IMG/VR virus record: IMGVR_UViG_3300006869_000154
Location: 1 to 20,037 of that record
Direction: 5' to 3' (one strand)
DNA: 20,037 nucleotides
DNA from: a virus
The notes under the pieces: generated by a model
Databases searched by the model: none
The model's input: only the letters and a program-made list of their open reading frames with translations
Told to the model about the DNA's origin: nothing
Program-made: the position numbers and the translations under genes
Shown: positions 1,415-15,720 of the stretch, one piece after another
Layout of the letters: each line of letters opens with the position of its first letter
How positions within the stretch are numbered: the first letter of the stretch is position 1

Positions 1415-1651
1415 TCAGTACAAGGACATGAGGGTTGAGATCGCCAAAATCAGTCGGTTTCTCCAGATCATGGAGTTGGACTGTTCTGCAATCTCCTGAG
1501 TGGTCTTGATGTCTTCGAGGATCTCAAAGAACTCTTCCTTGGTCAGGTTACCCGACTCGTACTCGACTGTGGTGGACTGGACTAACAGGGCCAGTCTAGA
1601 CATGTCTTGGTCTTCTGCTTGCCGTTTAATTTCTTGTAGTTCTGGACTCAT
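1415..1651 (-). CDS. Small protein with C-terminal membrane segment
   Basis: The 78-residue protein has an acidic helical body (QTTTVEYESGN-like region, then EEFFEILEDIKTTQEIAEQ) and ends in one hydrophobic stretch at about residues 62-78 (NRLILAISTLMSLY). It would be a tail-anchored inner-membrane protein. The ATG at 1651 overlaps the stop of the lipoprotein gene by 4 nt (ATGA) and has GGAG 7 nt upstream, so translation is coupled. It is the last gene of the membrane cassette 2991-1415. A perfect sigma-70 promoter inside the preceding gene (2003-2031) would transcribe this gene without an intact lipoprotein gene. A role in lysis, for example as a holin regulator, is possible from context, but no sequence motif shows it. 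Confidence 0.75.
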   Translation of the reverse strand: MSPELQEIKRQAEDQDMSRLALLVQSTTVEYESGNLTKEEFFEILEDIKTTQEIAEQSNSMIWRNRLILAISTLMSLY

Positions 1652-2022
1652 TTGTTTCTCCGTAGGATCGCCGTTCCAACGTCACGACTCTGTTCCTGCA
1701 ATAAAGTTTTCTTCAGTCCACAATATGTAGGTGACATCGATTCTCGCGCCGCGAGGGGTTCCGTTGTGGTTTTCATAAGTAGTAGAAGGTTATTAACATC
1801 ACGGGATCCTTTGAGTTCGGAGTACGCAATCAACCAGTCAACGTTATCATCGATAATCGCCGCTTGTTCTATTGCGAGACCTTCGTCACTACATTCTAGA
1901 TTATTGATGTTGTGGTAGAGTTCTACCGCTTGATACGACTCATTATCGTCGTAGAGTGATGCACAACCGCTGAGTATACTCATCCCCAGCAAGCTAGCTA
2001 AGATTATAACACGATTTTTCAT
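1648..2022 (-). CDS. Phage lipoprotein, candidate outer-membrane spanin
   Basis: This 124-residue protein starts MKNRVIILASLLGMSILSGC, a basic n-region, a hydrophobic core and a clear lipobox LSGC with the lipidation cysteine at residue 20. The residue after Cys is Ala, which favours sorting to the outer membrane. The mature part is about 105 residues with further cysteines at about 48 and 103. The ATG at 2022 is preferred over the in-frame TTG at 2031, because only the ATG gives a clean lipoprotein signal. Its Shine-Dalgarno sequence is weak (AGG 11 nt upstream), so coupling to the upstream gene, which ends 12 nt before, is likely. That upstream gene has one N-terminal membrane helix and a long coiled coil, so the two look like a two-component spanin pair. 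The assignment rests on architecture and order, not on family similarity. Confidence 0.8.
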   Translation of the reverse strand: MKNRVIILASLLGMSILSGCASLYDDNESYQAVELYHNINNLECSDEGLAIEQAAIIDDNVDWLIAYSELKGSRDVNNLLLLMKTTTEPLAARESMSPTYCGLKKTLLQEQSRDVGTAILRRNK

Positions 2023-2034: not shown

Positions 2035-2514
2035 CTAATTTGATAAAGGATTATCTAAAAACGCCTGTATTTTTGCGTCGAGTCTTTCCTCTACCTGTTG
2101 AAGTTTACGATCAGTATCCACAACGAGTGCATCTCGTTTGGTATCAAATCGTTCGTCAGCCCTATCTATCATATCTTCAACTACGGTTTCTAGAGTTCTC
2201 CCTTGATCCTCCACACGGTCAACGTTGCGTTCCATGCGATTGAAATCGTCTCGTAAGTCGTTCTTGATAGTTCTGGAATAGTCTACTGCGGCGTCAACTT
2301 GAATCAACGCATCGTCTAACTTCTGCTCGATTAGTCTATTGCGGTTCTCAATCTCTGTGGTATCGATGTTCGCAATGATCTCTTTCATATCCATGTAGTC
2401 TTTATAGAACTCAAATGCACCCCAAGATGCACCACCCAAGGTTGACAGGGCGGTGAGGATAACCATTATCCTACCACCTCTGAAGGTCATTCCCGCGAAT
2501 TCAAATTCTGCCAT
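2035..2514 (-). CDS. Membrane-anchored coiled-coil protein, candidate inner-membrane spanin
   Basis: The 159-residue protein has one predicted transmembrane helix at about residues 14-37 (RIMVILTALSTLGGASWGAF) after a short N-terminus. A long, highly charged helical region follows from about 42 to 152, with heptad-like spacing of hydrophobic residues, so a coiled coil is likely. This is the layout of an i-spanin: inner-membrane anchor plus periplasmic coiled coil. The ATG at 2514 has AAGGA 6 nt upstream. A lipoprotein gene starts 13 nt downstream, the usual partner order. Against the idea, no peptidoglycan hydrolase is visible in the window, and similar coiled-coil membrane proteins exist with other roles. 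Confidence 0.75.
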   Translation of the reverse strand: MAEFEFAGMTFRGGRIMVILTALSTLGGASWGAFEFYKDYMDMKEIIANIDTTEIENRNRLIEQKLDDALIQVDAAVDYSRTIKNDLRDDFNRMERNVDRVEDQGRTLETVVEDMIDRADERFDTKRDALVVDTDRKLQQVEERLDAKIQAFLDNPLSN

Positions 2515-2523
2515 CTGTTATCC

Positions 2524-2991
2524 TTAACTTACGATTACTGTGATGAGTCCTGTGATCACAAATATACTTATTCCTATACCAAAAACAAGCGCCGCAACAT
2601 CAATCCAGAACGCCTTGGCCTGCGCCTTCCTACGCATTTCGTTCTGACGATACCTTCGTATCCTTTTGCGTTCTTCCATCATGTCTTCGTAGAAGGCGCC
2701 TTGTCCGGAATAGATCAGGTACTCTCTGAGTTCTTTTTCCATCCATGCAATCTTGTGTTTCGCGGCGGTGATCTCCAACGCCTGCGCCTCTACACTGTTA
2801 CCACTAAAAAGTTTCTGAACTCCTGCGGTAGATTGGTTCTTGATGTTTGCTTCACTCACTGCGTCCATAGAATCGAAAAACTTTCCGAACGCGCCAATCA
2901 TATCTTGGGCTTCCCTACCCTTTTCCACTGCTCCCTTAATTGCATTATATGCGGCACCAGCGACTTGCACCGCGACAGCTAGTTCTACCAT
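2524..2991 (-). CDS. Hypothetical tail-anchored membrane protein
   Basis: The 155-residue protein opens with a small-residue-rich amphipathic stretch (AVAVQVAGAAYNAIKGA). It has a central charged helical part with a very basic patch at about residues 108-124 (ERKRIRRYRQNEMRRKAQAK) and ends in a hydrophobic segment at about 130-154. It therefore looks anchored in the inner membrane by its C-terminus. The ATG at 2991 is preceded by an A-rich leader with GAGA. It is the first gene after the late-promoter-like motif at 3023-3033, which makes it the head of the membrane cassette. The spanin-like gene follows 9 nt after its stop. I do not recognise a family; a holin-related or virion membrane role would be a guess. 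Confidence 0.75.
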   Translation of the reverse strand: MVELAVAVQVAGAAYNAIKGAVEKGREAQDMIGAFGKFFDSMDAVSEANIKNQSTAGVQKLFSGNSVEAQALEITAAKHKIAWMEKELREYLIYSGQGAFYEDMMEERKRIRRYRQNEMRRKAQAKAFWIDVAALVFGIGISIFVITGLITVIVS

Positions 2992-3022: not shown

Positions 3023-3033
3023 CTGTATTTATT
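3023..3033 (-). promoter_or_regulatory. T4-type late promoter candidate (AATAAATA)
   Basis: The minus strand carries AATAAATACAG, matching the NATAAATA late-promoter core known from T4-like phages. It overlaps the TAA stop of the gene ending at 3032 and lies 32 nt upstream of the ATG at 2991. The 9-mer TAAATACAG recurs at 5884-5892 upstream of the secreted cassette. Confidence 0.55.
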
Positions 3034-3529
3034 ATTCTTCGAATTGCAAGTTGCGTAAGTTTTGTAGTTCCTGTTGTAGTCTTAAGACCTCTAGTCGTTT
3101 CTTCTCCAACTCTAGTTTGTATAACAAGTTACAGTTGGGTCTCTCTTTTGGTGCACCGATAGGAATATTGATCCGTGCGTAAACACCCACGTCTCGTGTG
3201 AACGCTTGATTTCCAAATCTCGTGGGTGGACCTATGTCCGTACCATAGTAAGTTCCGTAGTAAGGGTCATCCTGATTGAGGATACCCACCACACCAAACT
3301 CTAGATTTGTTGCAGAACCAATCGCGGCAGAACACTCGAAGTCTCCTGCACGTACACGGTCCTGTTGAAAACTTTGGGGAGAGTTGGGCATATTAAGATT
3401 GAGAGAACTCGCGCTGTTACTAGTGGGCGCTCTCTCAATTATTGTTGTAGTGGTTGTTGCGGGTATAGAATCCTGCGCTGCGGTCTCAGCAGAAAACAAT
3501 AACGCTACAATAACGAGTAATTTTTTCAT
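3032..3529 (-). CDS. Secreted protein with C-terminal coiled coil
   Basis: The 165-residue protein begins MKKLLVIVALLFSAETAAQ, a typical Sec signal peptide with likely cleavage after TAA or TAAQ. A Thr-run and Ser/Asn/Pro-rich linker follows, then a short Gly-rich region with a cysteine (FECSAAIGSATNLEFGVVG), a Tyr-Gly-rich stretch, a second cysteine (NCNLLYKL), and a charged leucine-rich helix of about 35 residues, probably a coiled coil. The ATG at 3529 overlaps the upstream stop by 4 nt (ATGA), which decides against the in-frame ATG at 3544. It is the last gene of the secreted cassette. Its layout resembles that of the protein at 5250-5825, so the two may be distant paralogs. No known family is recognised; it would act in the periplasm or outside the cell. 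Confidence 0.8.
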   Translation of the reverse strand: MKKLLVIVALLFSAETAAQDSIPATTTTTIIERAPTSNSASSLNLNMPNSPQSFQQDRVRAGDFECSAAIGSATNLEFGVVGILNQDDPYYGTYYGTDIGPPTRFGNQAFTRDVGVYARINIPIGAPKERPNCNLLYKLELEKKRLEVLRLQQELQNLRNLQFEE

Positions 3530-3903
3530 TTCAATCTCGAACATATCCTAGAAGACACGGACGTTCCGGTAGTCCTTTGTCTGACAATTTTAGTTTTTGT
3601 ACATATGTAATCTGCAATACCAACATCTTGTTGTCGGATATACACCATTACTTCTCTTCTCTCTAAGTAAGGAACCCTAATTATCTTTTCGCTCGTGGCG
3701 AATTTCACGGGGTTCCACTCAGAGTCGTAAACACTAATCTCGAAGAACTCAACATCACTTCTTCGATTGATCAGTAACATCTCAGTCTGCATCACATTCT
3801 CAACAAAACTTCTTTCGAGTTTTGGATATGTTGGTGTCCAAGAGTGGGCCATCGCTGACCCACTCAAGAACAATCCTGTCAATAACATAATAAAACGTAT
3901 CAT
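3526..3903 (-). CDS. Secreted beta-rich protein, pilus-chaperone-like
   Basis: The 125-residue protein starts with the signal peptide MIRFIMLLTGLFLSGSAMAH (cleavage after AMA). The mature part alternates hydrophobic and polar residues as in an immunoglobulin-like sandwich: MLLINRRSDVEFFEISVYD, then VKFATSEKIIRVPYLERREV and MVYIRQQDVG. This pattern resembles the N-terminal domain of periplasmic pilus chaperones, which is about this size. The gene is one domain long, so a full two-domain PapD-type chaperone is not present. It starts immediately after the stop of the fimbrial-subunit-like gene (TAAATG), which suggests a subunit/partner relation. The two cysteines near the C-terminus (YICTKT, SRICSRL) may form a disulfide. 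The fold assignment is inference from pattern only. Confidence 0.75.
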   Translation of the reverse strand: MIRFIMLLTGLFLSGSAMAHSWTPTYPKLERSFVENVMQTEMLLINRRSDVEFFEISVYDSEWNPVKFATSEKIIRVPYLERREVMVYIRQQDVGIADYICTKTKIVRQRTTGTSVSSRICSRLK

Positions 3904-4407
3904 TTAGATTGCGATACACTCCGCCTGTACTGTCGCACGATAGATACCAGCGGGTAATGCCTTGTCAAATCCATAGTCGGCTTCTGAAGATACTTTGAAC
4001 CAAGTACTTCCTGCAACCGTTAGATCGATTTCTGTTACGTTGTTGTAGAGTCTCTTCTCAGTGTCGTATGCCGCCATCGCGGGATCCGAAACTTCACTGA
4101 CCGAAACTGTTCCACTCCAAGTCACAACATCGTCCAAAGCAGGACTCTCAACGAATTGGTCTGGAGTTGTTATTGTCGCCTTGTAATAATCAGCCTGAAT
4201 AACATCGTAGCGAACGATGGGTTCAACACCCCCGTCAACTGCGTCAGTACTGAGTGTACTTGGTGTCGGGTTTCCAAAGACACCTAGAGTGTCTGTTGTC
4301 ACCACACACTTAGAATCTACAGTACCCGTGATATCGACATTAGTTGCATTCGCACTTGTTGCGAGAACAAGAGACAACGCCGTTAATGGTAGTACTTTCT
4401 TTAACAT
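3904..4407 (-). CDS. Secreted fimbrial-subunit-like protein
   Basis: The 167-residue protein has the signal peptide MLKKVLPLTALSLVLATSANA. Its mature part is a beta-strand-rich domain of about 145 residues with one cysteine near the start (GTVDSKCVV) and one near the end (ATVQAECIAI). The ending LPAGIYRATVQAECIAI resembles the last strands of fimbrial and spore-coat-U-type subunits, where a Gly-x-Tyr strand closes the domain. Size, signal peptide and cysteine spacing also fit such a subunit. AAGGA lies 7 nt before the ATG at 4407. A chaperone-like gene follows directly. A structural prediction could show whether the first strand is a donor strand. An unrelated beta-sandwich such as an extracellular decoration protein is the main alternative. 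Confidence 0.75.
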   Translation of the reverse strand: MLKKVLPLTALSLVLATSANATNVDITGTVDSKCVVTTDTLGVFGNPTPSTLSTDAVDGGVEPIVRYDVIQADYYKATITTPDQFVESPALDDVVTWSGTVSVSEVSDPAMAAYDTEKRLYNNVTEIDLTVAGSTWFKVSSEADYGFDKALPAGIYRATVQAECIAI

Positions 4408-4420
4408 TTAATGTTCCTTT

Positions 4421-5317
4421 TTATGGTTGTTCATACTGTAGATTGACCATCTCTTGATGTAGTTGGTCTTGGGCAAAGTTTACACGATACCCGTTAGTAT
4501 TGTCAGGTAAATTCGCATCCTGTAGAGTTATGGTCTCCTCGTATTTAGTGTCGGGGAGTGTATCATAATAAAAAGTTGGTACGAAGTTTAGTAAGAGTAG
4601 TTGGTTGTGTATCTGTTGGTCAGCGGACGCGATAAGTGACCTCTCAACAATACCTAACATCTCTTCGAGGGATTTCCTTCTCAGGTTTGGTTTTGATTCA
4701 CCACCCTCCTCAATCTGTTCTCTATCTCTCTCTTCTTCCTCCTCATCTTTAGTTTCAGTTTCTTTTTCCAGTTCTTCTTGTACGAACTGATCGTCCATTG
4801 GATCATACGCTACAATTTCCGGTACGGTTGGAGTGGACGGAATATAATTCGGGCACTCCGGTCTATCAGTTACACCAAAACAAGGATCGTACTGATAGTT
4901 GTAGAGGACAGTAGGATCCGTTACTTTACCTTCACCTTCCACAACAATAGATCCGTCTCCCCACCTACTTCGAGGTATGTTAGAGACAGGAACCAATCTC
5001 CTTATCGAACTGCCTGGCAATCCAGACCAATCGTCTGCGGATCGAAAAATGTATTGACCTTCGTTCTCCGCATCCTCGTTCTGCACGTAGACGATCATAT
5101 CGTCTTCGGGGTTCTTTATGGTTGTGTATCTGTACACAACACCATTAACTGTAAGTCCTGTCTGTTGAGGCAGGACGTTGGTCATTACCCATGTAAGACC
5201 ATCTTGCGCCGCATTTCCGGTTGTCCCGAAAACGGTTTGTGCATGTACGTTAGATGACCAGAAGCATGAGAAGAATACTAAGGACACCACCAGCGCCCAG
5301 TAAGGTTTTCTTGTCAT
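4421..5317 (-). CDS. Large secreted acidic protein of unknown function
   Basis: The 298-residue protein starts at ATG 5317 (AGGG 7 nt upstream), not at the in-frame ATG 5347. Residues 1-27 form a signal peptide (hydrophobic core WALVVSLVFFSCFW, cleavage after VHAQ or VHA). Residues 28-170 form a globular region with TVFGTTGNAAQDGLTWVM at its start, a WGDGSIVVEGEG segment at 119-130 and cysteines 146 and 155. An extremely acidic stretch follows (about 180-205, mostly Glu/Asp), then basic RRKSLEEML and a hydrophobic-aromatic C-terminal part. It shares 68 nt with the end of the upstream gene. I do not recognise it. The Glu-rich linker suggests calcium binding or a spacer. It probably acts in or outside the host envelope. 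Confidence 0.8.
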   Translation of the reverse strand: MTRKPYWALVVSLVFFSCFWSSNVHAQTVFGTTGNAAQDGLTWVMTNVLPQQTGLTVNGVVYRYTTIKNPEDDMIVYVQNEDAENEGQYIFRSADDWSGLPGSSIRRLVPVSNIPRSRWGDGSIVVEGEGKVTDPTVLYNYQYDPCFGVTDRPECPNYIPSTPTVPEIVAYDPMDDQFVQEELEKETETKDEEEEERDREQIEEGGESKPNLRRKSLEEMLGIVERSLIASADQQIHNQLLLLNFVPTFYYDTLPDTKYEETITLQDANLPDNTNGYRVNFAQDQLHQEMVNLQYEQP

Positions 5318-5825
5318 TTGTAAACCCTTTGTCGTAGTCTTCTGCATTGGGTTGTTCCTCTTCGTTGATTTCCCACGCCGCCTTTGCCGCTGGACCTATT
5401 AGACCATCATATGGACACGGTGTTCCGGCGTGCATCATTGCATCAAAGACTCTTTCGTCTTGGCACATAACCGACACGGCGGCCACTTTCATTCCCATAT
5501 CATAGAGCGTCTTTGCATTCTTTAACCTCTCACAATTTTCATCCGTTACCTGAGTACCTGTAGAGACACCAAGAATCTGAGTTTGAATTGCACCCGCAAC
5601 TCCAAAGGTACACAAGTCTGAGTTCGACGTGTTGATTGTCGGGGTGATCGCAGAGGCAGGGGGTGATCTGAGAATAGTAGTCGTTTTACCGTTGGTAGTA
5701 ACGGTACTCTCAGTTATGATAGGTTCAACTGTTTGAGTCGGAGTTTCGTCAGCGTCCTGTGCATTGACTGCGACTCCAAAAATTAATGATGTAAGTAACA
5801 CCACGCTGCTAATTACTAAGCGCAT
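5250..5825 (-). CDS. Secreted protein with signal peptide and C-terminal membrane anchor
   Basis: The 191-residue protein begins MRLVISSVVLLTSLIFGVAVNAQ (signal peptide, written here as MRLVISSVVLL then TSLIFGVAVNAQ). A Thr-rich segment (TVTTNGKTTTILRSPP) follows, then the Gly/Ala region SDLCTFGVAGAIQTQILGV, a conserved-looking helical block (NCERLKNAKTLYDMGMK), cysteines in VSVMCQDERVF and GTPCPYDGL, and a hydrophobic tail GAGGVLSILLMLLVI. The mature protein would sit in the periplasm anchored by its C-terminus. ATG 5825 has AAGGA 7 nt upstream and is preferred over the TTG at 5843. It heads the secreted cassette behind a late-promoter-like motif and a leader hairpin. Six cysteines suggest disulfides. 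No family is recognised. Confidence 0.8.
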   Translation of the reverse strand: MRLVISSVVLLTSLIFGVAVNAQDADETPTQTVEPIITESTVTTNGKTTTILRSPPASAITPTINTSNSDLCTFGVAGAIQTQILGVSTGTQVTDENCERLKNAKTLYDMGMKVAAVSVMCQDERVFDAMMHAGTPCPYDGLIGPAAKAAWEINEEEQPNAEDYDKGFTNDKKTLLGAGGVLSILLMLLVI

Positions 5826-5883: not shown

Positions 5884-5894
5884 CTGTATTTAGT
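5884..5894 (-). promoter_or_regulatory. Late-promoter-like motif upstream of secreted cassette
   Basis: The minus strand reads ACTAAATACAG, one mismatch to the NATAAATA core but sharing the exact 9-mer TAAATACAG with the site at 3023-3031. Transcription would start near 5881 and produce a leader of about 55 nt containing the 9-bp hairpin. Confidence 0.4.
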
Positions 5895-5920: not shown

Positions 5921-6688
5921 TTATTCCATTTGTTCGAAGATGTGATATAAAAGAGTCGAATACTCTGTATGTGCGTCTTCGTCTGGATGATTGTGTTCGT
6001 GGATCGTATAGTTCTCTTTGGCGAGAGTGTAGAGGTCTTTCCAATGTCCCATTCCAATCCTAGACTCTTTCTTTAGTCTACCCAGATGTTCATTACACTG
6101 TTTCTGCCAATTGCGAAAAATTTTATCTCGTCCATTTTCCTGAGTCATGTAGATCATCATATCATACATCATCTTATGGAAAGCGCCTTGAATCAATTTA
6201 ATACCAAGAGTATCACATGTGTTTTGTAGACTTAACATGAAAGTAAGGGTGTGTAGAATATCGGTTCTTGGTTCATGACCCTTATGGATATACATGTACA
6301 TCGCACCCCACTTACTCTCGTCAAGAATATCGATTCTCTCCGGAGAATATTGGGTCATGTCATCATATCGTTTTATGTTCAACCACTTTTCGTTGTGAAC
6401 CTCTCTGGACTCAGCGACCTCATGTCGAGTAAACCCAGACCACATAACCACAATGTGAGTGGGCATGGTTCTCTTTCCCGCCTGTGCATCCGCAAGGTAC
6501 ACTGTGAGATCACGGAAAATCTTTTCGTTACCTCCGCCACAGGTTGCAAGATTTACTGGTGGTTCCTCAAAACCAAGATGATTACTTAACTTACTTGCCC
6601 AGTTTCTAGGCCAGTGAGTAGGGGGGTCATCATTACAACCCTCCAACTCATCCCCATATGTAAAACTGCAACCATTGACTAGTAACAT
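5921..6688 (-). CDS. SGNH-hydrolase-like protein
   Basis: The 255-residue protein starts MLLVNGCSFTYGDEL, the block I signature of phage SGNH/GDSL-type hydrolases, with the candidate nucleophile Ser8. Further family-like blocks are ATCGGGNEKI (Asn54), VVMWSGFTRHE (about 81-90) and a C-terminal HNHPDEDAH, where His234 in HP would be the catalytic histidine. The acid three residues before it is Glu231 instead of the usual Asp. Length is normal for the family. Members are esterases, acetylhydrolases or lipases acting on sugars or lipids; the substrate cannot be told. The start ATG lies 3 nt after the stop of the DUF3310 gene. No signal peptide is seen, so it acts in the cytoplasm or virion, for example on capsule or LPS acetyl groups if virion-borne. 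Confidence 0.75.
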   Translation of the reverse strand: MLLVNGCSFTYGDELEGCNDDPPTHWPRNWASKLSNHLGFEEPPVNLATCGGGNEKIFRDLTVYLADAQAGKRTMPTHIVVMWSGFTRHEVAESREVHNEKWLNIKRYDDMTQYSPERIDILDESKWGAMYMYIHKGHEPRTDILHTLTFMLSLQNTCDTLGIKLIQGAFHKMMYDMMIYMTQENGRDKIFRNWQKQCNEHLGRLKKESRIGMGHWKDLYTLAKENYTIHEHNHPDEDAHTEYSTLLYHIFEQME

Positions 6689-6691
6689 AAA

Positions 6692-7225
6692 TTATCCATT
6701 TTCTAGATCGTGAACATACAACGCCAGTAGTGCGTAGTGCAATACTTTCATTAGGTCTTTGCGGTGATCAGATACATCACCCTTATTACCGTAGCGACTG
6801 TTGTATTTATCCACGTTACCTAGAAAGAAACCCATACCTCTTCCCCTGTCAATGATAACCTCACTTGACTGGATACCGGACTGACAATAGTGGGCGCTGT
6901 ACGTACTATCGATGTACTCTTTAAATTCCTTGATCAACTCATCCTCACGGAACTTATAGTCCGGACGATGTTCAACGCTGCCATAGTCATCATCAGTAAC
7001 AGTCAGGGTTACTGTAGTGGCGTCCCCATAGTCAAGTGTGTAGGGATTTCCGATACTAGTTGTAAAGTCTAGGGGCACAGTATCAACAGTTATACCATCT
7101 ACTTTAATAGTGTCCTCCTTCTTTCCAAACTTCTCTTCCCTATGTTTACGGGCCATCTCGTTCCACTCTTCTGGAGTGATGTCATCAATACTACCCCTAC
7201 CACTTCTATCCTTCTTTTTCGACAT
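6692..7225 (-). CDS. DUF3310-domain protein
   Basis: The 177-residue protein has a charged N-terminal half and a C-terminal domain at about residues 110-172 that fits DUF3310. Visible elements are AHYCQSGIQSSEVI (His112, Tyr113), the glycine/asparagine block GFFLGNVDKYNSRYGNK (Gly136, Asn137, Lys140, Tyr141, Arg144), and DHRKDLMKVLHYALLAL (Asp157, Lys160, Tyr164). The domain occurs in many phages and in the nucleotide kinase gp1.7 of T7, so a role in nucleotide metabolism is possible and fits the thymidylate synthase nearby; activity is not shown by the sequence. ATG 7225 overlaps the ANL-like gene by 20 nt and has GAGG upstream. The N-terminal 90 residues are unassigned. Confidence 0.8.
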   Translation of the reverse strand: MSKKKDRSGRGSIDDITPEEWNEMARKHREEKFGKKEDTIKVDGITVDTVPLDFTTSIGNPYTLDYGDATTVTLTVTDDDYGSVEHRPDYKFREDELIKEFKEYIDSTYSAHYCQSGIQSSEVIIDRGRGMGFFLGNVDKYNSRYGNKGDVSDHRKDLMKVLHYALLALYVHDLENG

Positions 7226-8660
7226 CTCTATACCTCAATCTATCAGTTTCATAATCATCGAAACCATACTCCAGTTGACTCTTCAGGTTGTGCCAGTATC
7301 GACATCTTAGATTGTCGAGACAAAACGCTTCCCTAGACTGGTGTACGATATCCTTAAAATACCGAAGGTCAGAGAGTTTCTCGTTCTCTTCGGCGGTAAA
7401 GTCTTCGTATACAACCAAGTAGTTTCTACCGTACTTGGATAGTATGTCGAAGTTCTCATGACCCAGAATCTCCTTCACTGGTCTTGAGTACGGGTTCTTG
7501 AACACTCTATGTAACCGAATGTACTCACCCGCCTCGTTCTTGTCATAAAAATGAGAAAGTTGCACGAATTCTCTACACGGTTTTGCACGAACCAGTGCGA
7601 CCTTTTCCCTTTCATTATACAAAATATTATAGAAGTTGTCAAGGGGTTTTCCTACGTTACCCTCTTCGAACGGTGTCTTTTTGTCAACCACCTTGCAGAA
7701 CAGATTAAACGCCTGCGCCCTCTTTTCTCCACTTAGGATCGCAACTCTTAGATCCCACTTCTTTATAATACGGTGTAGGTTCTCCGTGAACTCACCATAG
7801 GGGTAAATGAATGTCACATCTCTCCTAGATTTTTTAGACATACGAGCGACCATGTTTTCAAGGGTCTCCTCGTTCTTGATCATGACTTGTTTCTTACCCT
7901 CTTCCTCCATGACAGACACAACAAAGTTTGTGAACACGGGGTTCCACATGGACAACCTGTCCCAGAAATTCATTAACAGATGTTCCGTACAGTAGATGTA
8001 AGCCGGTAGGAAATACGTCATGAAAGATTCTGCGTGAATGAAATTGAAGGTGTGGATTGCACGAGTGTCTTTTAGATTAAATATTGCACCGTTACGTGCA
8101 GAGAGTGCGGCGACCTCTTTATGTGTGTAGTACCTGAAATTGAAACTGTCATCTTCCAGTCCGTCATCATACGAGATGTATAGAAGATCATGGGGTCCGG
8201 ATAAGATGCCAGGCACTTCACCCCCTTCATAAGAGTCTAGGTCAACATCATCGATGTTAATCAGACACCCAGTGTTACCGTAACTCTCCATTTCATGTAC
8301 AAGGTAGTCAGGTATGATACCCTCACACATGCGAGAAGCCTCTTCATCTATCACAAGTAGTTCAGGTTTGAGAAGAGGGATTGCACCATCAACTAGGATG
8401 TCTCTGTTCCAAGGCAGGTGGCCCGGAAACATAACAACACCCAGTTCTGCAAGTGCAAAAACAAAGGCGTGAAAATTTGTTTTGTTGGTGACACAACCAA
8501 TCGCACATATGTCACCCTTCTGGATACCCACCTCGTTATGGAGATAGCACTTCCACTTATCAATTAGTTCGACAAACTCTTCTTTGTTGTGTTCACTAGC
8601 ACGTCCCCTATGGACGTTTCTAACCAGAAGTTGTTCTCGAAGTAAACTCCGATTAATCAC
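7206..8660 (-). CDS. Degenerate ANL-superfamily (acyl-adenylate synthetase-like) protein
   Basis: This 484-residue protein follows the ANL fold order without its catalytic motifs. Residues 28-110 match the N-terminal region of AMP-forming synthetases: EVGIQKGDICAIGCVTN, then FVFALAELGVVMFPG and the buried strand PELLVIDEEAS. At 157-186 DLLYISYDDGLEDDSF takes the place of the Ser/Thr/Gly-rich phosphate loop and is followed by YYTHKEVAAL where THxN is usual. Residues 303-341 (LRVAILSGEKRAQAF, then NVGKPLDNF) match the SGG and VGKPL blocks, while the YGxTE motif between them is missing. Length is a little short for a complete enzyme. The start is GTG 8660 with AGGAG 7 nt upstream; it overlaps the upstream 2OG oxygenase gene by 8 nt, so the two are coupled. 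A binding or carrier role rather than adenylation is likely. Confidence 0.65.
   Translation of the reverse strand: MINRSLLREQLLVRNVHRGRASEHNKEEFVELIDKWKCYLHNEVGIQKGDICAIGCVTNKTNFHAFVFALAELGVVMFPGHLPWNRDILVDGAIPLLKPELLVIDEEASRMCEGIIPDYLVHEMESYGNTGCLINIDDVDLDSYEGGEVPGILSGPHDLLYISYDDGLEDDSFNFRYYTHKEVAALSARNGAIFNLKDTRAIHTFNFIHAESFMTYFLPAYIYCTEHLLMNFWDRLSMWNPVFTNFVVSVMEEEGKKQVMIKNEETLENMVARMSKKSRRDVTFIYPYGEFTENLHRIIKKWDLRVAILSGEKRAQAFNLFCKVVDKKTPFEEGNVGKPLDNFYNILYNEREKVALVRAKPCREFVQLSHFYDKNEAGEYIRLHRVFKNPYSRPVKEILGHENFDILSKYGRNYLVVYEDFTAEENEKLSDLRYFKDIVHQSREAFCLDNLRCRYWHNLKSQLEYGFDDYETDRLRYRDVEKEG
7614..7642 (-). promoter_or_regulatory. Perfect-consensus sigma-70 promoter within ANL-like gene
   Basis: TTGACA (7637-7642), 17 nt, TATAAT (7614-7619): 12/12 match on the coding strand of the ANL-like gene. 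A start near 7607 would give a transcript carrying the 3' part of that gene, then DUF3310 and the SGNH-like gene. It lies in codons for GKPLDNFYNILYNE, so it may be chance in an AT-rich coding stretch. Confidence 0.5.
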
Positions 8661-9318
8661 TCTCAATCTCCTCAATTAACATGTCACGTAACTGTCTCGC
8701 CTTCTCATCACGAGGATCATTTTCACCATACCCACAGAATTTATATGCGAGGGTAATCCGTTTACCCCCTGCATATGCGGCGTGCCAACACAAATTATCA
8801 GGTTCCTCTTTGGGTCCAAAGTAATAGTGTCTGCACTGCCAGCCTGGTACGTCTGGTATGGTCACCACTTCATCTTTCTTGATATCATAATAAGTGAAGT
8901 AACCATCACCCTCAGACCAAGTGAACAGAACTTGATATGCGGTAGCGTCCCAGTTGGTATGCCAACCTACGAAACCGCCTGGCGGGTAATACGACAACAG
9001 TGCACTGGTGTGCGCCCCTATCTCAGATGCGAACTCGTACTTGACCATATTCATGTACGAACTCCAGACTTCCGGATCCCTTCGTACCATAGACGCAATC
9101 GGTTGTGCATAGTGTCTATCTGGCGGACCTACAGGATCACCCTTAAGAGAAACCTCTCTCAAGAACTCTTCGCTTGTAAGGTACTGTCCGTTTTGTCTGT
9201 CCTCTTCAGAAGAGTACATGAAGTACTTTGGATCCTCGTACCCGTCAACCTTAAAGAACTCATCTTTGAAATGGTTGAGGGTTGCGAGAAAGTCTTTATT
9301 CCGTATCTGAACTTCCAT
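8653..9318 (-). CDS. 2OG-Fe(II) oxygenase-like protein
   Basis: The 221-residue protein has a double-stranded beta-helix signature: LLSYYPPGGFVGWHTNWDA, then LFTWSEGDGYFTYYD, and CWHAAYAGGKRITLAYKF at the end. His120, His179 and Arg187 are the natural candidates for the distal and proximal iron ligands and the 2-oxoglutarate anchor. The usual HxD is HTN here (Asn122), with Asp124 two residues on, so the second ligand is uncertain. ATG 9318 has AGGA 6 nt upstream; the longer frame from 9381 is rejected. It overlaps the AbrB-like gene by 23 nt and the ANL-like gene by 8 nt. The substrate is unknown: protein, small molecule or a group bound by the ANL-like partner are possible. Confidence 0.75.
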   Translation of the reverse strand: MEVQIRNKDFLATLNHFKDEFFKVDGYEDPKYFMYSSEEDRQNGQYLTSEEFLREVSLKGDPVGPPDRHYAQPIASMVRRDPEVWSSYMNMVKYEFASEIGAHTSALLSYYPPGGFVGWHTNWDATAYQVLFTWSEGDGYFTYYDIKKDEVVTIPDVPGWQCRHYYFGPKEEPDNLCWHAAYAGGKRITLAYKFCGYGENDPRDEKARQLRDMLIEEIESD

Positions 9319-12716: not shown

Positions 12717-13755
12717 CGACTATCGCATCCATATCAACCTGTTGAGGTAGTCCAATCTTGTACTGTTTCTCTAGGAAGTCTGCGAAGTCTGTGAACTCAA
12801 AGATCGGAGTCCAGAACTCTTCTTCCAGAGTTTGAGTCAGACGAACCTTCGGGTCAAGTAACTCTCCAGTTTCTCTATCAACGCGACAATACCAACCATT
12901 ACTAGGCTTAGTGACATAACCACCAACAAGAGCAGCATCCAGAAGACCGCTATAACGCTGTACACCACCTTCCCAAGACACAGAAATAGGAATCTTAGAC
13001 TTTTCTTTAACATATCGACTCTTCTCCACATTGATCACAAAGTGGTAACCCTTGATCTCTGTACCAACTTTATCCTGTTGGCGTCCAAGGATCCAGATGT
13101 TGTCTGCACTGTAATAGATACCAGTACCACCACCCACAATATCTTTGGGGAAGAGACCGATCTCTTTGTACGTATGGTTCACCGCCAACATAGGAATGTT
13201 CTTCATTGCGAGGTATGGTGTACACATACGGAACAGACCCTTCAGTGCCTTCGCACGTGACATGTCTGCAACAGACTTCTCGTTGATTGCATCCTCAAGT
13301 TCTTTCTTGGATGCAAGGTTACCGATTGAGTCGATCACTACGATTACATCATCGTTGCGATCCAACTCTTCGAGTTGACTGATCAAGTCAAACTTGAGTT
13401 CTTCTACATTCGTGATAGGAGTGTGAAGCACCCGATCAGTGTCAATTCCAAACTGTTGGAAATAAGATTGGGGGGAACCGAACTCACTATCATAGAATAG
13501 TAATACCGCATCTTTCTTTGCCTCCAGATATGCACCCGCCATCAACAAGGCGAATGAGGTCTTGAAGTGTTTGGATGGACCCGCAAGTACCGTAAGGCCT
13601 GGCGTAACTCCACCGTTGACAGATCCGGATAGTGCAACGTTCACCATAGGAACGTTGGTTGGGACCATATCTTTCTCAGTGAAGAACTTACTCTCCGACA
13701 GTACCTCCGTTGTCTTGATCTTCGAGTTCTTCTTCAGTTTGTCCATCACGCTCAT
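12700..13755 (-). CDS. uvsX: UvsX, RecA-like recombinase
   Basis: The 351-residue protein is the phage homologue of RecA: it coats single-stranded DNA and drives strand exchange for recombination-dependent replication. Walker A is GPSKHFKTS at 59-67, the T4-UvsX-type loop, and Walker B is VIVVIDSIGN with Asp142. The block MLAVNHTYKE and the following Gly-rich loop GGGTGIYYSADNIW match the DNA-binding region. The C-terminus (DMDAIVDAEET) is acidic as usual. ATG 13755 has GGAG 9 nt upstream, and the first 68 nt overlap the 3' end of the UDP-glucose dehydrogenase gene. A weak promoter candidate lies at 13810-13839. Confidence 0.95.
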   Translation of the reverse strand: MSVMDKLKKNSKIKTTEVLSESKFFTEKDMVPTNVPMVNVALSGSVNGGVTPGLTVLAGPSKHFKTSFALLMAGAYLEAKKDAVLLFYDSEFGSPQSYFQQFGIDTDRVLHTPITNVEELKFDLISQLEELDRNDDVIVVIDSIGNLASKKELEDAINEKSVADMSRAKALKGLFRMCTPYLAMKNIPMLAVNHTYKEIGLFPKDIVGGGTGIYYSADNIWILGRQQDKVGTEIKGYHFVINVEKSRYVKEKSKIPISVSWEGGVQRYSGLLDAALVGGYVTKPSNGWYCRVDRETGELLDPKVRLTQTLEEEFWTPIFEFTDFADFLEKQYKIGLPQQVDMDAIVDAEET

Positions 13756-14719
13756 TATTCACATCTCCAAAAGTAATATTGTTCGCTTTCTCTCGTTCAT
13801 CTAGCTCATAGTATGCACGATATCGGCTGTTTATGTCAAGGACTTTTTCGATTAAATCGAAACTAATCTTGTTACCCTCTTGGTCCTCTGCCTCAGAGAA
13901 CTTTAAGAATGCGGTTGCATCCTTGGGTAAACATGCACCACCAAACCCACGTTTGCGGTCATAACCCGGCACACGGGTGTGTCCAACACCAACACGAGGA
14001 TCTCGGCCAACCGCACGTGTAACGATGTTGTAAGAACAACCCCACGCATTGATCAGGTCATACAGTTGGTTAAAGAAGGTAACCTTAGTTGCAAGGTAAG
14101 TGTTGATTGCATACTTCACGAACGATGCCTCTGCGGCCGCCATGCGGAAGTACTCGTTAGACTTACACAGACTGAACACGTCATAGATTTCTACCAGTTC
14201 GGCAGTTGCACGTTCACTACCACCAAGTACGTGGAACTCTGCATTTACAAACTGTTCCTCTGCCGACTTCTCCGTAAGGAACTCAGGGTTGTACACGAAA
14301 CGATCAATACCGTCCTCAAACATAGAGTTGTAGAGTCGATCAATAACGTCCGGAGTGATTGTTGATTTGACAACAACAAGAGACTCGGTGTGTTCGATCA
14401 GTTTGAGTACCGCATCCTCTACGATAGATGCATCAACAAATCCACTGTCGGGGTTCATGGGTGTGGGTGCACACACAAACACACAGTGTGGTTCGAACTC
14501 AACCATCGCATCGATGGATGCCTCTGGACCATACTTTGGATCTGCAATCTGCAAGTCCACTAGTGGATGTAGGAATGCATACTCTACTGCCTTACCTACA
14601 AACCCATGACCGACAATACCCAACTTGAAAGGGTTATCCGGACTAATAGGTTTCTGTTTGTCTGCCTGAGATGGACCGTCCGAAGTCTTCGGAACAAAGT
14701 CATCAAAATTATCTGCCAT
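13688..14719 (-). CDS. UDP-glucose 6-dehydrogenase family protein
   Basis: The 343-residue enzyme belongs to the UDP-glucose/GDP-mannose dehydrogenase family, oxidising a UDP-hexose (likely UDP-glucose to UDP-glucuronate) with two NAD+. The Rossmann loop is GIVGHGFVGKAV (34-45). STITPDVIDRL, YNPEFLTE (Glu147), KYAINTYLATKVTFFNQ (Lys202, Asn206) and GFGGACLPKD (catalytic Cys263) are all in place. The protein is shorter than bacterial Ugd (about 390-450), with an extra 30-residue N-terminal tail and a truncated, very acidic C-terminal part instead of a full UDP-binding domain. The last 22 residues come from codons overlapping uvsX by 68 nt. GGAG lies 8 nt before ATG 14719, inside the end of the epimerase gene. 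Next-door epimerase makes a two-step uronate pathway. Confidence 0.9.
   Translation of the reverse strand: MADNFDDFVPKTSDGPSQADKQKPISPDNPFKLGIVGHGFVGKAVEYAFLHPLVDLQIADPKYGPEASIDAMVEFEPHCVFVCAPTPMNPDSGFVDASIVEDAVLKLIEHTESLVVVKSTITPDVIDRLYNSMFEDGIDRFVYNPEFLTEKSAEEQFVNAEFHVLGGSERATAELVEIYDVFSLCKSNEYFRMAAAEASFVKYAINTYLATKVTFFNQLYDLINAWGCSYNIVTRAVGRDPRVGVGHTRVPGYDRKRGFGGACLPKDATAFLKFSEAEDQEGNKISFDLIEKVLDINSRYRAYYELDEREKANNITFGDVNNERDGQTEEELEDQDNGGTVGE
13810..13839 (-). promoter_or_regulatory. Weak sigma-70-like promoter upstream of uvsX
   Basis: TTGACA (13834-13839) with CATACT (13810-13815, 4/6) after 18 nt. It lies within the dehydrogenase gene, about 45 nt upstream of the uvsX ATG in terms of start point. 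The position is sensible but the -10 is poor. Confidence 0.3.
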
Positions 14720-14721
14720 TA

Positions 14722-15720
14722 TTATGTCTCCTCTACGTCATAAAAATTTTTGTACCACTCATAGAATTTTGCAACACCTTCTGCAATACTGACCTTCGGT
14801 GTATATCCTAGTTTTTGAAGTTTGTCTGTGTTACTCCACGTCTCTTTTGTATCGGCGGGATGTTTCGCAACCATCTCCTTCGTAACTTCCTTACCAACGT
14901 TCTTCTCAATCTCTGAGATGAAGTCCATCAGTTGAACCTGTTCGCCTCTACCAATATTAAATATCTCATTATTGGGAATGACTCCAGATTCCACGTTCGC
15001 CAAAACGATGCAGATCCCGTCAAGGATATCATCGATGTAGGTGAAGTCCCGCTTCATATCCCCATAATTATACACCTTTATTGGCGTTCCGTCAAGGGTT
15101 GATTTCGTAAATTGGAAGAGTGCCATGTCTGGTCTACCCCAAGGTCCGTACACGGTAAAGAAACGTAGTCCTGTACTAAACAACTTGGAAATTCCGAACT
15201 GACACTCGTTGATGTATTTGGTATATGCATAGGCGTTAAGTTGGTGCGCCTGAACAAAGTCTTCCTTCCACCCATTCTCTGAAATAGGAGTTCCTCCATA
15301 TACAGAACTGGTAGATGCATAGATGAATTTTGTTTGGGGACTGTAGTTTTCGAACAGATTAATTAGGTTCTGTGTACCATCAATGTTGTTTGAGTGATAC
15401 TCTGATTCTTTCCCAAACGAGTCACGCACCCCTGCGTGTGCGGCGAGATGTATAACATAGTCAAAGGGTTCGCCCACAACATCCGGTATCAAACGTTGAT
15501 CGTTTAAAAGGTTACCCAGCATCAGTTCATCACGTATGTCCATGTCCATGATCTGCATACCAAAGTTAGTATGTCTTTTAACTTTCAACCAAGGATCATA
15601 GAGATGACTGTTCCAGTTATCGCATCCAATAACATCATGACCCATTCCTGTGAGTCTTAGACACAACTGAGATCCTATGAACCCTGCAGCTCCGGTGACT
15701 AATATTCTTTTATTATCCAT
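14722..15720 (-). CDS. NAD-dependent epimerase, UDP-glucuronate 4-epimerase-like
   Basis: The 332-residue extended short-chain dehydrogenase has the NAD-binding motif TGAAGFIG (Gly10, 13, 16), the catalytic Tyr164/Lys168 in NAYAYTK, with STSSVYGG carrying the Ser/Thr. The stretch VYGPWGRPDMALF (190-202) is typical of UDP-glucuronate 4-epimerases and related enzymes. With the dehydrogenase that follows, UDP-glucose would become UDP-glucuronate and then UDP-galacturonate. Length is normal. ATG 15720 overlaps the primase stop by 8 nt and has no clear Shine-Dalgarno, so translation depends on coupling. The sugar substrate is inferred from the motif; GDP-mannose or other UDP-sugar epimerases are alternatives. 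Confidence 0.88.
   Translation of the reverse strand: MDNKRILVTGAAGFIGSQLCLRLTGMGHDVIGCDNWNSHLYDPWLKVKRHTNFGMQIMDMDIRDELMLGNLLNDQRLIPDVVGEPFDYVIHLAAHAGVRDSFGKESEYHSNNIDGTQNLINLFENYSPQTKFIYASTSSVYGGTPISENGWKEDFVQAHQLNAYAYTKYINECQFGISKLFSTGLRFFTVYGPWGRPDMALFQFTKSTLDGTPIKVYNYGDMKRDFTYIDDILDGICIVLANVESGVIPNNEIFNIGRGEQVQLMDFISEIEKNVGKEVTKEMVAKHPADTKETWSNTDKLQKLGYTPKVSIAEGVAKFYEWYKNFYDVEET

Follow-up and report, generated by a model that had tools for sequence, protein, structure and literature searches.

The 20,037-base IMG/VR virus record IMGVR_UViG_3300006869_000154 (hereafter referred to as the window) belongs to a T4-like marine phage and encodes a family B DNA polymerase, a UvsX-type recombinase (T4_UVSX_C, E = 6.6e-12), a DnaB-like helicase and ThyX. 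Five consecutive minus-strand genes at 5825..3032, designated A to E, form the cassette under study here, which was considered together with a further gene, G, located downstream on the same strand. All five are open and have ATG starts. Gene A (5250..5825) encodes 191 aa, with a signal peptide, a Ser/Thr-rich stretch, a four-cysteine domain and a hydrophobic C-terminal tail. Gene B (4421..5317; 298 aa) encodes a signal peptide, a conserved two-cysteine part, an acidic stretch and a conserved C-terminal segment. The product of gene C (3904..4407; 167 aa) is exported and predicted to be an immunoglobulin (Ig)-like sandwich that weakly resembles fimbrial subunits, and that of gene D (3526..3903; 125 aa) is exported and predicted to consist of a single domain with the PapD-type periplasmic chaperone fold, in which Cys101 and Cys121 lie in the final two strands. 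Gene E (3032..3529) specifies an exported 165-aa protein with two invariant cysteines and a Leu/Glu-rich C-terminal stretch. Gene G (2035..2514; 159 aa) encodes an N-terminal membrane helix, a long hydrophilic part and the C-terminal sequence NPLSN, and is the conserved partner of A. Genes A and B overlap by 68 nucleotides (nt), B and C are separated by 13 nt, C and D abut with a gap of 0, and D and E overlap by 4 nt.

Signal peptides were scored with a heuristic of our own. The N-termini of A, B, C, D and E are positively charged, hydrophobic and cleavable-looking; all five pass, as do most of their orthologs (A, 64/78; B, 89/92; C, 79/84; D, 67/72; E, 68/75). Among the 22 other genes of the window, only those for a lipoprotein (H, below) and a Rossmann-fold enzyme, a false positive, pass, and the membrane protein G does so in 1 of 69 sequences. 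The five consecutive genes with Sec-type signal peptides described in an earlier, sequence-only reading of the window are therefore confirmed. Each of the four conserved cysteines of A (positions 72, 98, 121 and 137) is present in 78/78 sequences, and the two in C, D and E are found in 84/84, 72/72 and 75/75, respectively; those of B are present in 90/92 and 92/92. Such even counts of conserved cysteines in exported proteins would fit oxidation in the periplasm. The hydrophobic C-terminal tail of A is retained in 77 of 78 sequences from the lineage that carries C, D and E.

Searches of Pfam and PHROGs returned no named family for C, D, A or E, and PDB profile searches with the same four proteins gave nothing credible; A matches phrog_20531 (E = 3.4e-16) and E matches phrog_37374 (E = 9e-6). 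Paralogy of A and E, which share a similar spacing of two cysteines, was considered and rejected, the hhalign probability being 41 over only 21 N-terminal columns.

Conservation of the Cassette in Related Phages

To collect related loci, A, C, D and E of the window, together with the C and D proteins from divergent relatives, served as queries against IMG/VR. All locus counts given here refer to the best 80 loci listed for each scan; many of these are near-copies or the same contig, and 65 of the 78 A sequences are below 90% identity. Ten of 103 loci were left out of the A alignment by length, and these 10 have no lysis match. Three contigs are near-identical to the window. The 115-kb L003 and the 33.6-kb L002 encode A to E and G proteins that are 100% identical to those of the window, and L001 is 99.98% identical to it over 9,819 nt.

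Scans with C and A yielded a first set of 118 loci; A to E are collinear in 102, and the other 16 end inside the cassette at contig ends. Scans with D and E added 80 loci, 62 with A to E in order and 18 that start inside the cassette. In 151 divergent loci, A-B-C-D-E-G is complete in 114 and truncated by contig ends in 37, with no exceptions, and C and D are adjacent in every examined locus that holds both. The tight or overlapping junctions reported for the window recur in its relatives, with an A/B overlap of 62-83 nt in 103/103 and median C/D and D/E spacings of 3 and -4 nt, respectively. Whether the genes occur together or scattered had been set beforehand as a test; no locus breaks the cassette, the incomplete ones being accounted for by contig ends. 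The cassette is a real, abundant and well conserved module.

Searches of 84,980 prokaryote species genomes with a C profile and one peptide pattern revealed two relatives of C, both on short contigs of metagenome-assembled genomes. Given that both contigs carry A-B-C-D-E-G, they are assigned to phages, and a bacterial origin of the cassette was rejected on this basis. C, E and B (the last at E ≤ 1) had no counterpart among 50,697 phage records. The only match of D, to Rhizobium phage RHEph01 (E = 0.6), was discarded as spurious because it lies inside a 2-kb gene amid virion genes. Thus, these records include no close isolate of the C-D-E lineage.

Late-promoter Motifs Upstream of Gene A

A degenerate box of the T4 late type, CTAAATAC, lies at 5886..5893 on the minus strand, 61-68 nt before gene A, and a second late-type box, ATAAATAC, at 3025..3032 (minus strand) before gene F. 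Inside the window such motifs are no more frequent than expected by chance, and the window's own box before A is degenerate (CTAAATA). Of 85 distinct upstream regions from relatives, 40 have the exact sequence TATAAATA, the T4 late-promoter core, ahead of A, mostly at 26-47 nt from the start; 200 mononucleotide shuffles gave a mean of 1.6 and a maximum of 7. TAAATA was observed upstream of A in 55 of the 85, and in the 150 nt before the other genes in 4/91 (B), 17/86 (C), 4/74 (D), 10/78 (E) and 2/73 (G). The enrichment of TATAAATA before A supports a late transcript starting at A. The late-promoter-like motif that had been proposed in front of the cassette is borne out by the exact box in relatives.

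A, B and G as a Wider Core

Homologs of A are present in 11 of the 50,697 phage records, namely six Pelagibacter phages (including Mosig EXVC030M, HTVC023P and HTVC115P), the Roseobacter phages CRP-207 and CRP-810, and three environmental genomes; HTVC027P, a phage of the HTVC023P type, is not among the records found. In 11/11, A is followed by a B-like protein with an export-signal-like N-terminus, which appears in HTVC115P, HTVC202P, CRP-207 and CRP-810 only after the annotated start is moved upstream. Next after B in 11/11 comes a G-like protein with an N-terminal membrane helix and the C-terminus NPL, or NPM in one case. HTVC115P has a few small genes between B and this protein, and its G homolog matches G of the window with E = 3e-17. 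No match to C, D or E was obtained in these 11 phages. Some annotations in these records deserve mention. In MW202481, A (L379:4890-5396) and G (L379:6233-6640) are unannotated and B is named 'transport protein tonB', a name that looks wrong, as do the names OmpA family for A and lysozyme for the G-like protein of CRP-810.

For comparison, sets of 80 loci each were assembled for HTVC023P-type and CRP-207-type phages, A being unrecognised in 4 and 11 of them, respectively. Here, G was defined by a rule requiring an N-terminal transmembrane (TM) helix and the C-terminus NPL, applied to loci with more than 3 kb downstream. A is linked with a rule-defined G in 42/42 HTVC023P-type and 55/58 CRP-207-type loci; of the three misses, two are due to 226-aa G proteins, which exceed the length that the rule allows, and one to a G that ends in KPL. 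None of 1105 other open reading frames (ORFs) obeys the rule. Profile comparison by hhalign shows A to be clearly homologous across the groups (probability 99.4-100). For G, the window matches the CRP-207-type set with a probability of 95.6 and the HTVC023P-type set, less surely, with 74.8; the latter two sets do not match each other (8.2). Given that A-B-G occurs in SAR11 and Roseobacter phages without C-D-E, A-B-G is the core. C-D-E is an addition between B and G in one T4-like lineage, A-B-G being the older part. The five-gene cassette of the sequence-only reading was correctly observed, and both the A-B-G core and the C-D-E addition were missed.

Lysis Genes and Lipoproteins near the Module

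Lysis genes lie near the module in 5 of the 11 named phages. These encode a GTA_holin_3TM protein beside A in Mosig (25.8 bits; cut-off, 24.8), a Peptidase_M15_3 protein immediately after G in HTVC023P, an Amidase_2 protein ∼0.9 kb upstream in HTVC033P, a Phage_lysozyme protein in MW202481, some 0.7 kb downstream of G, and a peptidoglycan-binding, GH19-like enzyme in MW202675, ∼1 kb beyond G, for which the GH19 match is just below cut-off. In the C-D-E lineage, Phage_lysozyme-type genes are located 7-412 nt before A in seven loci, and at L083 only 5 nt separate a GH19 gene from the start of A downstream of it. In a divergent C-D-E clade, a holin and/or GH19 endolysin gene is found within 1.8 kb after G in 70 of 111 loci with room for one. 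At locus L112, three further genes continue from G, with junctions of 9, -1 and -4 nt; they encode, in this order, an EF-hand/TM protein, a PF11351-type holin (its L106 homolog has E = 2.8e-24) and a GH19 enzyme. The covered flanks of 30 of 76 HTVC023P-type loci contain an M15 or GH24 match. A statistic on lysis neighbors (a match in 12 of 55 representatives, 11 within 1.2 kb, 3.7 expected) was discarded, since its queries were biased and it missed a lysozyme gene 4.7 kb away at L055.

Hydropathy analysis revealed one N-terminal TM segment and none later in 69/69 G sequences, and the N-terminal side is the more positive in 57/69. G is accordingly predicted to have the topology of an i-spanin, with an N-terminal TM anchor and its body in the periplasm. 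In the window, gene H (1648..2022, minus strand) encodes a lipoprotein (SILSGC) right after G. Gene H and the gene for a 78-aa protein, I, which follows it (1415-2022, minus strand, for the two), are largely restricted to the clade of the window, and H contains two additional cysteines. Gene F (2524..2991, minus strand; 155 aa with a C-terminal hydrophobic segment) stands between E and G only in some relatives and elsewhere in others. By rule, a lipoprotein ORF is located near G in 15 of 87 loci of the C-D-E lineage (window H included; one is a 41-aa overlap), compared with 0/69 in the control, and at G in only 1 of 76 HTVC023P-type loci. G and H as a general spanin pair were rejected, given that H is nearly confined to the window's clade; in the window itself, the two may conceivably form such a pair.

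By rule, 30 of 69 CRP-207-type loci contain a lipoprotein ORF of ∼71 aa that overlaps the beginning of A. Those just before A in CRP-207 (L123:1725-1940) and CRP-810 (L124:4693-4953) are absent from the record annotations. A profile of 18 such CRP-207-type lipoproteins aligns with A of the window over 41 columns (probability 94.6, E = 6.9e-8), in the four-cysteine domain of its second half (NCERLKNAKTL...AAVSVMCQD). Fifty shuffles scored at most 5.6, other profiles at most 18.5, and the two other sets of A 76.5 and 69.9. This match puts a copy of the A domain at a lipoprotein site in CRP-207-type phages, as an o-spanin would be, and so makes it a candidate outer-membrane-type partner.

The module bears comparison with two-component spanins (Rz/Rz1). 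The similarities are the i-spanin-like G of the window with lipoprotein H directly after it, the lipoprotein before A in Roseobacter-type phages, and the holin and endolysin genes that the cassette abuts in part of its relatives. By contrast with these spanins, no rule-defined lipoprotein ORF is found at G in 72 of 87 relatives, and up to five extra exported proteins are encoded. Judged by its gene content, the cassette in most relatives is not a canonical spanin pair. With u-spanins, A shares a C-terminal hydrophobic tail but has no lipobox; given that this is lacking and that no conserved cysteine lies near the signal peptide, A is not considered to be a u-spanin.

Predicted Folds of D and C

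C and D were modelled with AlphaFold2 (AF2) as a single read-through stretch, with a mean predicted local distance difference test (pLDDT) value of 91.1 and a predicted template modelling (pTM) score of 0.61. In the D block, pLDDT is 84-98 from model residue 191 on. When D was compared with known structures by VIA, ranks 1-16 were all occupied by chaperone-usher chaperones, led by FimC (4dwh_A; Z = 10.9 over 100 residues, root mean square deviation (rmsd) 2.8), Caf1M (1z9s_A; Z = 10.8) and SafB (2co6_B; Z = 10.7), these top matches covering 97-103 residues with an rmsd of 2.4-3.1. Across such chaperones, Z was 9.3-10.9 over 91-103 residues with an rmsd of 2.4-3.5. The same list contains the unrelated CsxA Ig domain at Z = 10.2 and eukaryotic MSP domains at up to 9.7. 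Given that non-chaperone domains score close to the top, the fold class of D is well supported and a chaperone function is not. The model thus supports D as a one-domain protein with the fold of the first domain of PapD chaperones, which bears out the one-domain chaperone-like protein proposed from sequence.

D ends after the last strand of this first domain, with no second Ig domain, and measures 122-138 aa in 71 distinct orthologs. FGL chaperones carry an F1-G1 disulfide, and the Cys101/Cys121 pair of D lies in its last two strands, as at that site. D also resembles chaperone-usher chaperones in being exported, encoded beside an Ig-like subunit and predicted to adopt the fold of their N-terminal domain. 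Unlike them, D has a single domain, is phage-encoded, lacks a PF00345 match (none in the window at E ≤ 10; unlisted for 62 D orthologs at E ≤ 0.1) and occurs with no usher that could be found (PF00577, 0/13 records of 43-160 kb at E ≤ 1, where the records may be fragments). Comparison of D with seven K-12 chaperones by hhalign was not significant (probability 0.7). PHROG_25455 spans D nearly end to end with an E of only 0.054, and the best BFVD match to the C-D model is an unnamed viral protein of 133 aa (E = 1.5e-4). A stand-alone PapD-fold protein in a phage cassette would be unusual whatever its role; among the papers listed by literature searches aimed at phage-encoded chaperone or fimbrial genes, which covered few subscription journals, none dealt with such a case, as judged by titles and the openings of abstracts.

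Modelled alone by AF2, C gave a pLDDT of 91.8 and a pTM of 0.78. The first Foldseek matches are the chaperone-usher pilins CfaB, the PapG pilin domain and FimF (E = 1.4e-3 to 4.2e-3), with nothing at E ≤ 1e-3. The best VIA matches are MSCRAMM (SdrD) and integrin domains with Z ≤ 7.6, a level that the tool's note describes as common; no chaperone-usher pilin appears in its 50 rows, an absence that excludes nothing. Against 16 K-12 pilins, hhalign aligned only the N-terminus of C (NVDITGTVDS-KCVV; motif VDITGTV..KC) at the place of the pilin donor-strand/strand A, with a probability of 67.6 that 0/100 column shuffles reached. With signal peptides removed, the probability fell to 0.8, which is not significant, and mature C has only ∼7 residues ahead of the invariant Gly28. 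PF00419 and PF05229 gave no window match at E ≤ 10 and are unlisted for 64 C orthologs, one of which has a FimH_man-bind match (E = 0.036). C is modelled as only weakly resembling pilins. The pilin-like protein proposed earlier is weakly supported by the Ig-like sandwich and a Foldseek list led by pilins, but not by the VIA comparison, with no pilin listed and a best Z of 7.6. The pTM of 0.61 for the read-through model, despite well predicted domains, provides no support for a C-D complex.

Interpretation

At somewhere near an even chance, and thus tentatively, the favored explanation is that the cassette constitutes a late, exported, spanin-like envelope module acting at the lysis stage. On this view, A to E would be the exported arm of a late operon, A-B-C-D-E-G. 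These five proteins would pass by Sec into the periplasm late in infection and be oxidised there; the hydrophobic tail at its C-terminus would tether A, and the inner membrane would anchor G, whose body would project into the periplasm. D may maintain the Ig-like subunit C in its folded state, possibly through donation of its own final strand, and the five exported proteins would assemble with G into an envelope complex in which the part played by C is a guess. Once holin and endolysin had opened the inner membrane and the wall, this complex would break or bridge the outer membrane, which is the job of a spanin; most relatives would do so with no recognisable lipoprotein beside G. The A-B-G core itself would be a set of phage proteins whose site of action is the host envelope during the final phase of infection.

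PMC6139136 treats the breach of the outer membrane by phages without recognisable spanins, ∼13% of the genomes analysed there and many of them marine cyanophages, as an open question. A-B-G is a concrete candidate for the spanin role in SAR11 and Roseobacter phages. It is conceivable, if doubtful, that A-B-G, with or without a lipidated copy of the A domain, represents a new multi-component means of outer-membrane disruption in many marine alphaproteobacterial phages. One T4-like lineage would then have extended it with a PapD-like chaperone of a single domain, working without an usher, and the Ig subunit of that chaperone, which would make a phage-encoded chaperone-subunit pair of this fold.

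A number of observations weigh against the spanin-like explanation. Outer-membrane disruption by A, B or G is something that we only infer from their sequences and context, and the involvement of a chaperone and an Ig subunit in lysis would, as far as we know, be without precedent. Homology of B between the groups is undetectable by hhalign, and the correspondence is one of position and signal peptide only. The hydrophobic tail of A is missing in the HTVC023P-type (0/55) and CRP-207-type (0/53) sets; A of HTVC115P ends in a similar hydrophobic segment. Neither a holin nor an endolysin was recognised in the window, the flanks of 74 of 90 loci (those near-identical to the window included) gave no match to the lysis queries, and an endolysin match was found in 0/69 CRP-207-type loci. 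Moreover, since the queries for the flank BLAST searches were taken from genes beside the module, the proximity counts are biased upward. A stand-alone lysozyme gene is present in 11 of 20 whole records. In eight of these, relatives of the window among them, over 20 kb separate it from the cassette; the remaining distances are 24 bp in one, and 2.6 and 4.7 kb in two. Searches of whole records for GH19 and Amidase_2 added one adjacent GH19 gene (G012) and no other adjacent enzyme. Lysis genes of T4-like phages are described in PMC6139136 as not clustered, so that the distance between cassette and lysozyme would be weak evidence either way.

An unlikely alternative is superinfection exclusion or late sealing of the envelope, in which exported proteins in the periplasm or outer membrane block the entry of later phages. 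T4 RI is a small exported periplasmic phage protein. T4 Spackle, described in PMC7677548 as a periplasmic early gene product that inhibits the gp5 lysozyme, provides a precedent for exclusion, with which the export signals and conserved cysteines of the cassette also agree. Like Spackle and RI, as far as their descriptions rather than sequences go, the cassette proteins are small exported phage proteins that would act in the periplasm. Spackle and RI are single proteins, however, and Spackle is early. The cassette, by contrast, is preceded by a late-type box in relatives and neighbors holin and endolysin genes in part of them, and as a six-protein module with a membrane protein it is larger than any exclusion factor known to us.

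A surface fiber or coat, with C as a pilus-like subunit and D as its chaperone, for cell aggregation or a block to adsorption, is distinctly unlikely. The PapD N-domain fold of D, the pilins at the head of the Foldseek list for C, the unbroken adjacency of C and D in loci with both, and the alignment of the C N-terminus with 16 K-12 pilins argue for it, and pelagiphage curli genes, with a proposed role in sibling capture according to PMC7029224, offer a precedent. Against it stand an usher not found in 13 records, the missing second chaperone domain of D, the ∼7 residues before Gly28 in mature C, for which the mature-only pilin match is not significant, a VIA list for C free of chaperone-usher pilins, and the existence of A-B-G without C and D. 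The exported surface structure suggested by the sequence-only reading is accordingly not supported, with neither usher nor curli pore in the 13 records and no confident docking of C and D; for its proposed role, genomic context points at least equally to the lysis stage.

It is very unlikely that the proteins are virion-associated, either coating virions at lysis or using their N-terminal hydrophobic segments for some other purpose. The late-type box before A would agree with this, as would the surroundings of A-B-G: tail-fiber and terminase genes flank it in MedDCM-OCT-S28-C10, terminase genes follow it in CRP-207 and a tail-fiber gene precedes it in CRP-810. Five separate signal peptides and even numbers of conserved cysteines, on the other hand, fit the periplasm and not the cytoplasm, where virions form. 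Finally, a piece of a curli (type VIII secretion) cassette can practically be dismissed: some of the phage groups overlap with the HTVC023P-type podophages and pelagimyophages that carry curli genes according to PMC9599517 and PMC7029224, and both cassettes are conserved rows of exported proteins of marine myo- and podophages (PMC7029224, PMC9599517 and PMC9004378), but no common protein family was seen, none of the five proteins matches a Pfam curli family at E ≤ 1, and the CsgG pore was found in 0/13 records at E ≤ 1, where the records may be fragments.

Other Features of the Window and Its Relatives

Immediately upstream of A, a gene at 5921-6688 (minus strand) encodes a DUF6071-like protein, and two such genes occur in tandem in some relatives. 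A 489-aa protein encoded at 7206-8675 (minus strand) has no Pfam match at E ≤ 0.001 and is 35-60% identical in non-identical relatives. Within the replication region, at 13688-15720 (minus strand), UDP-glucose/GDP-mannose dehydrogenase-like and NAD epimerase-like genes are adjacent and may serve surface-sugar modification. Lastly, a small exported protein encoded near the cassette in five loci (L036:4915-5253) has a weak match to Phage_OMP, a cyanophage outer-membrane beta barrel (E = 1.2e-4, under the cut-off).

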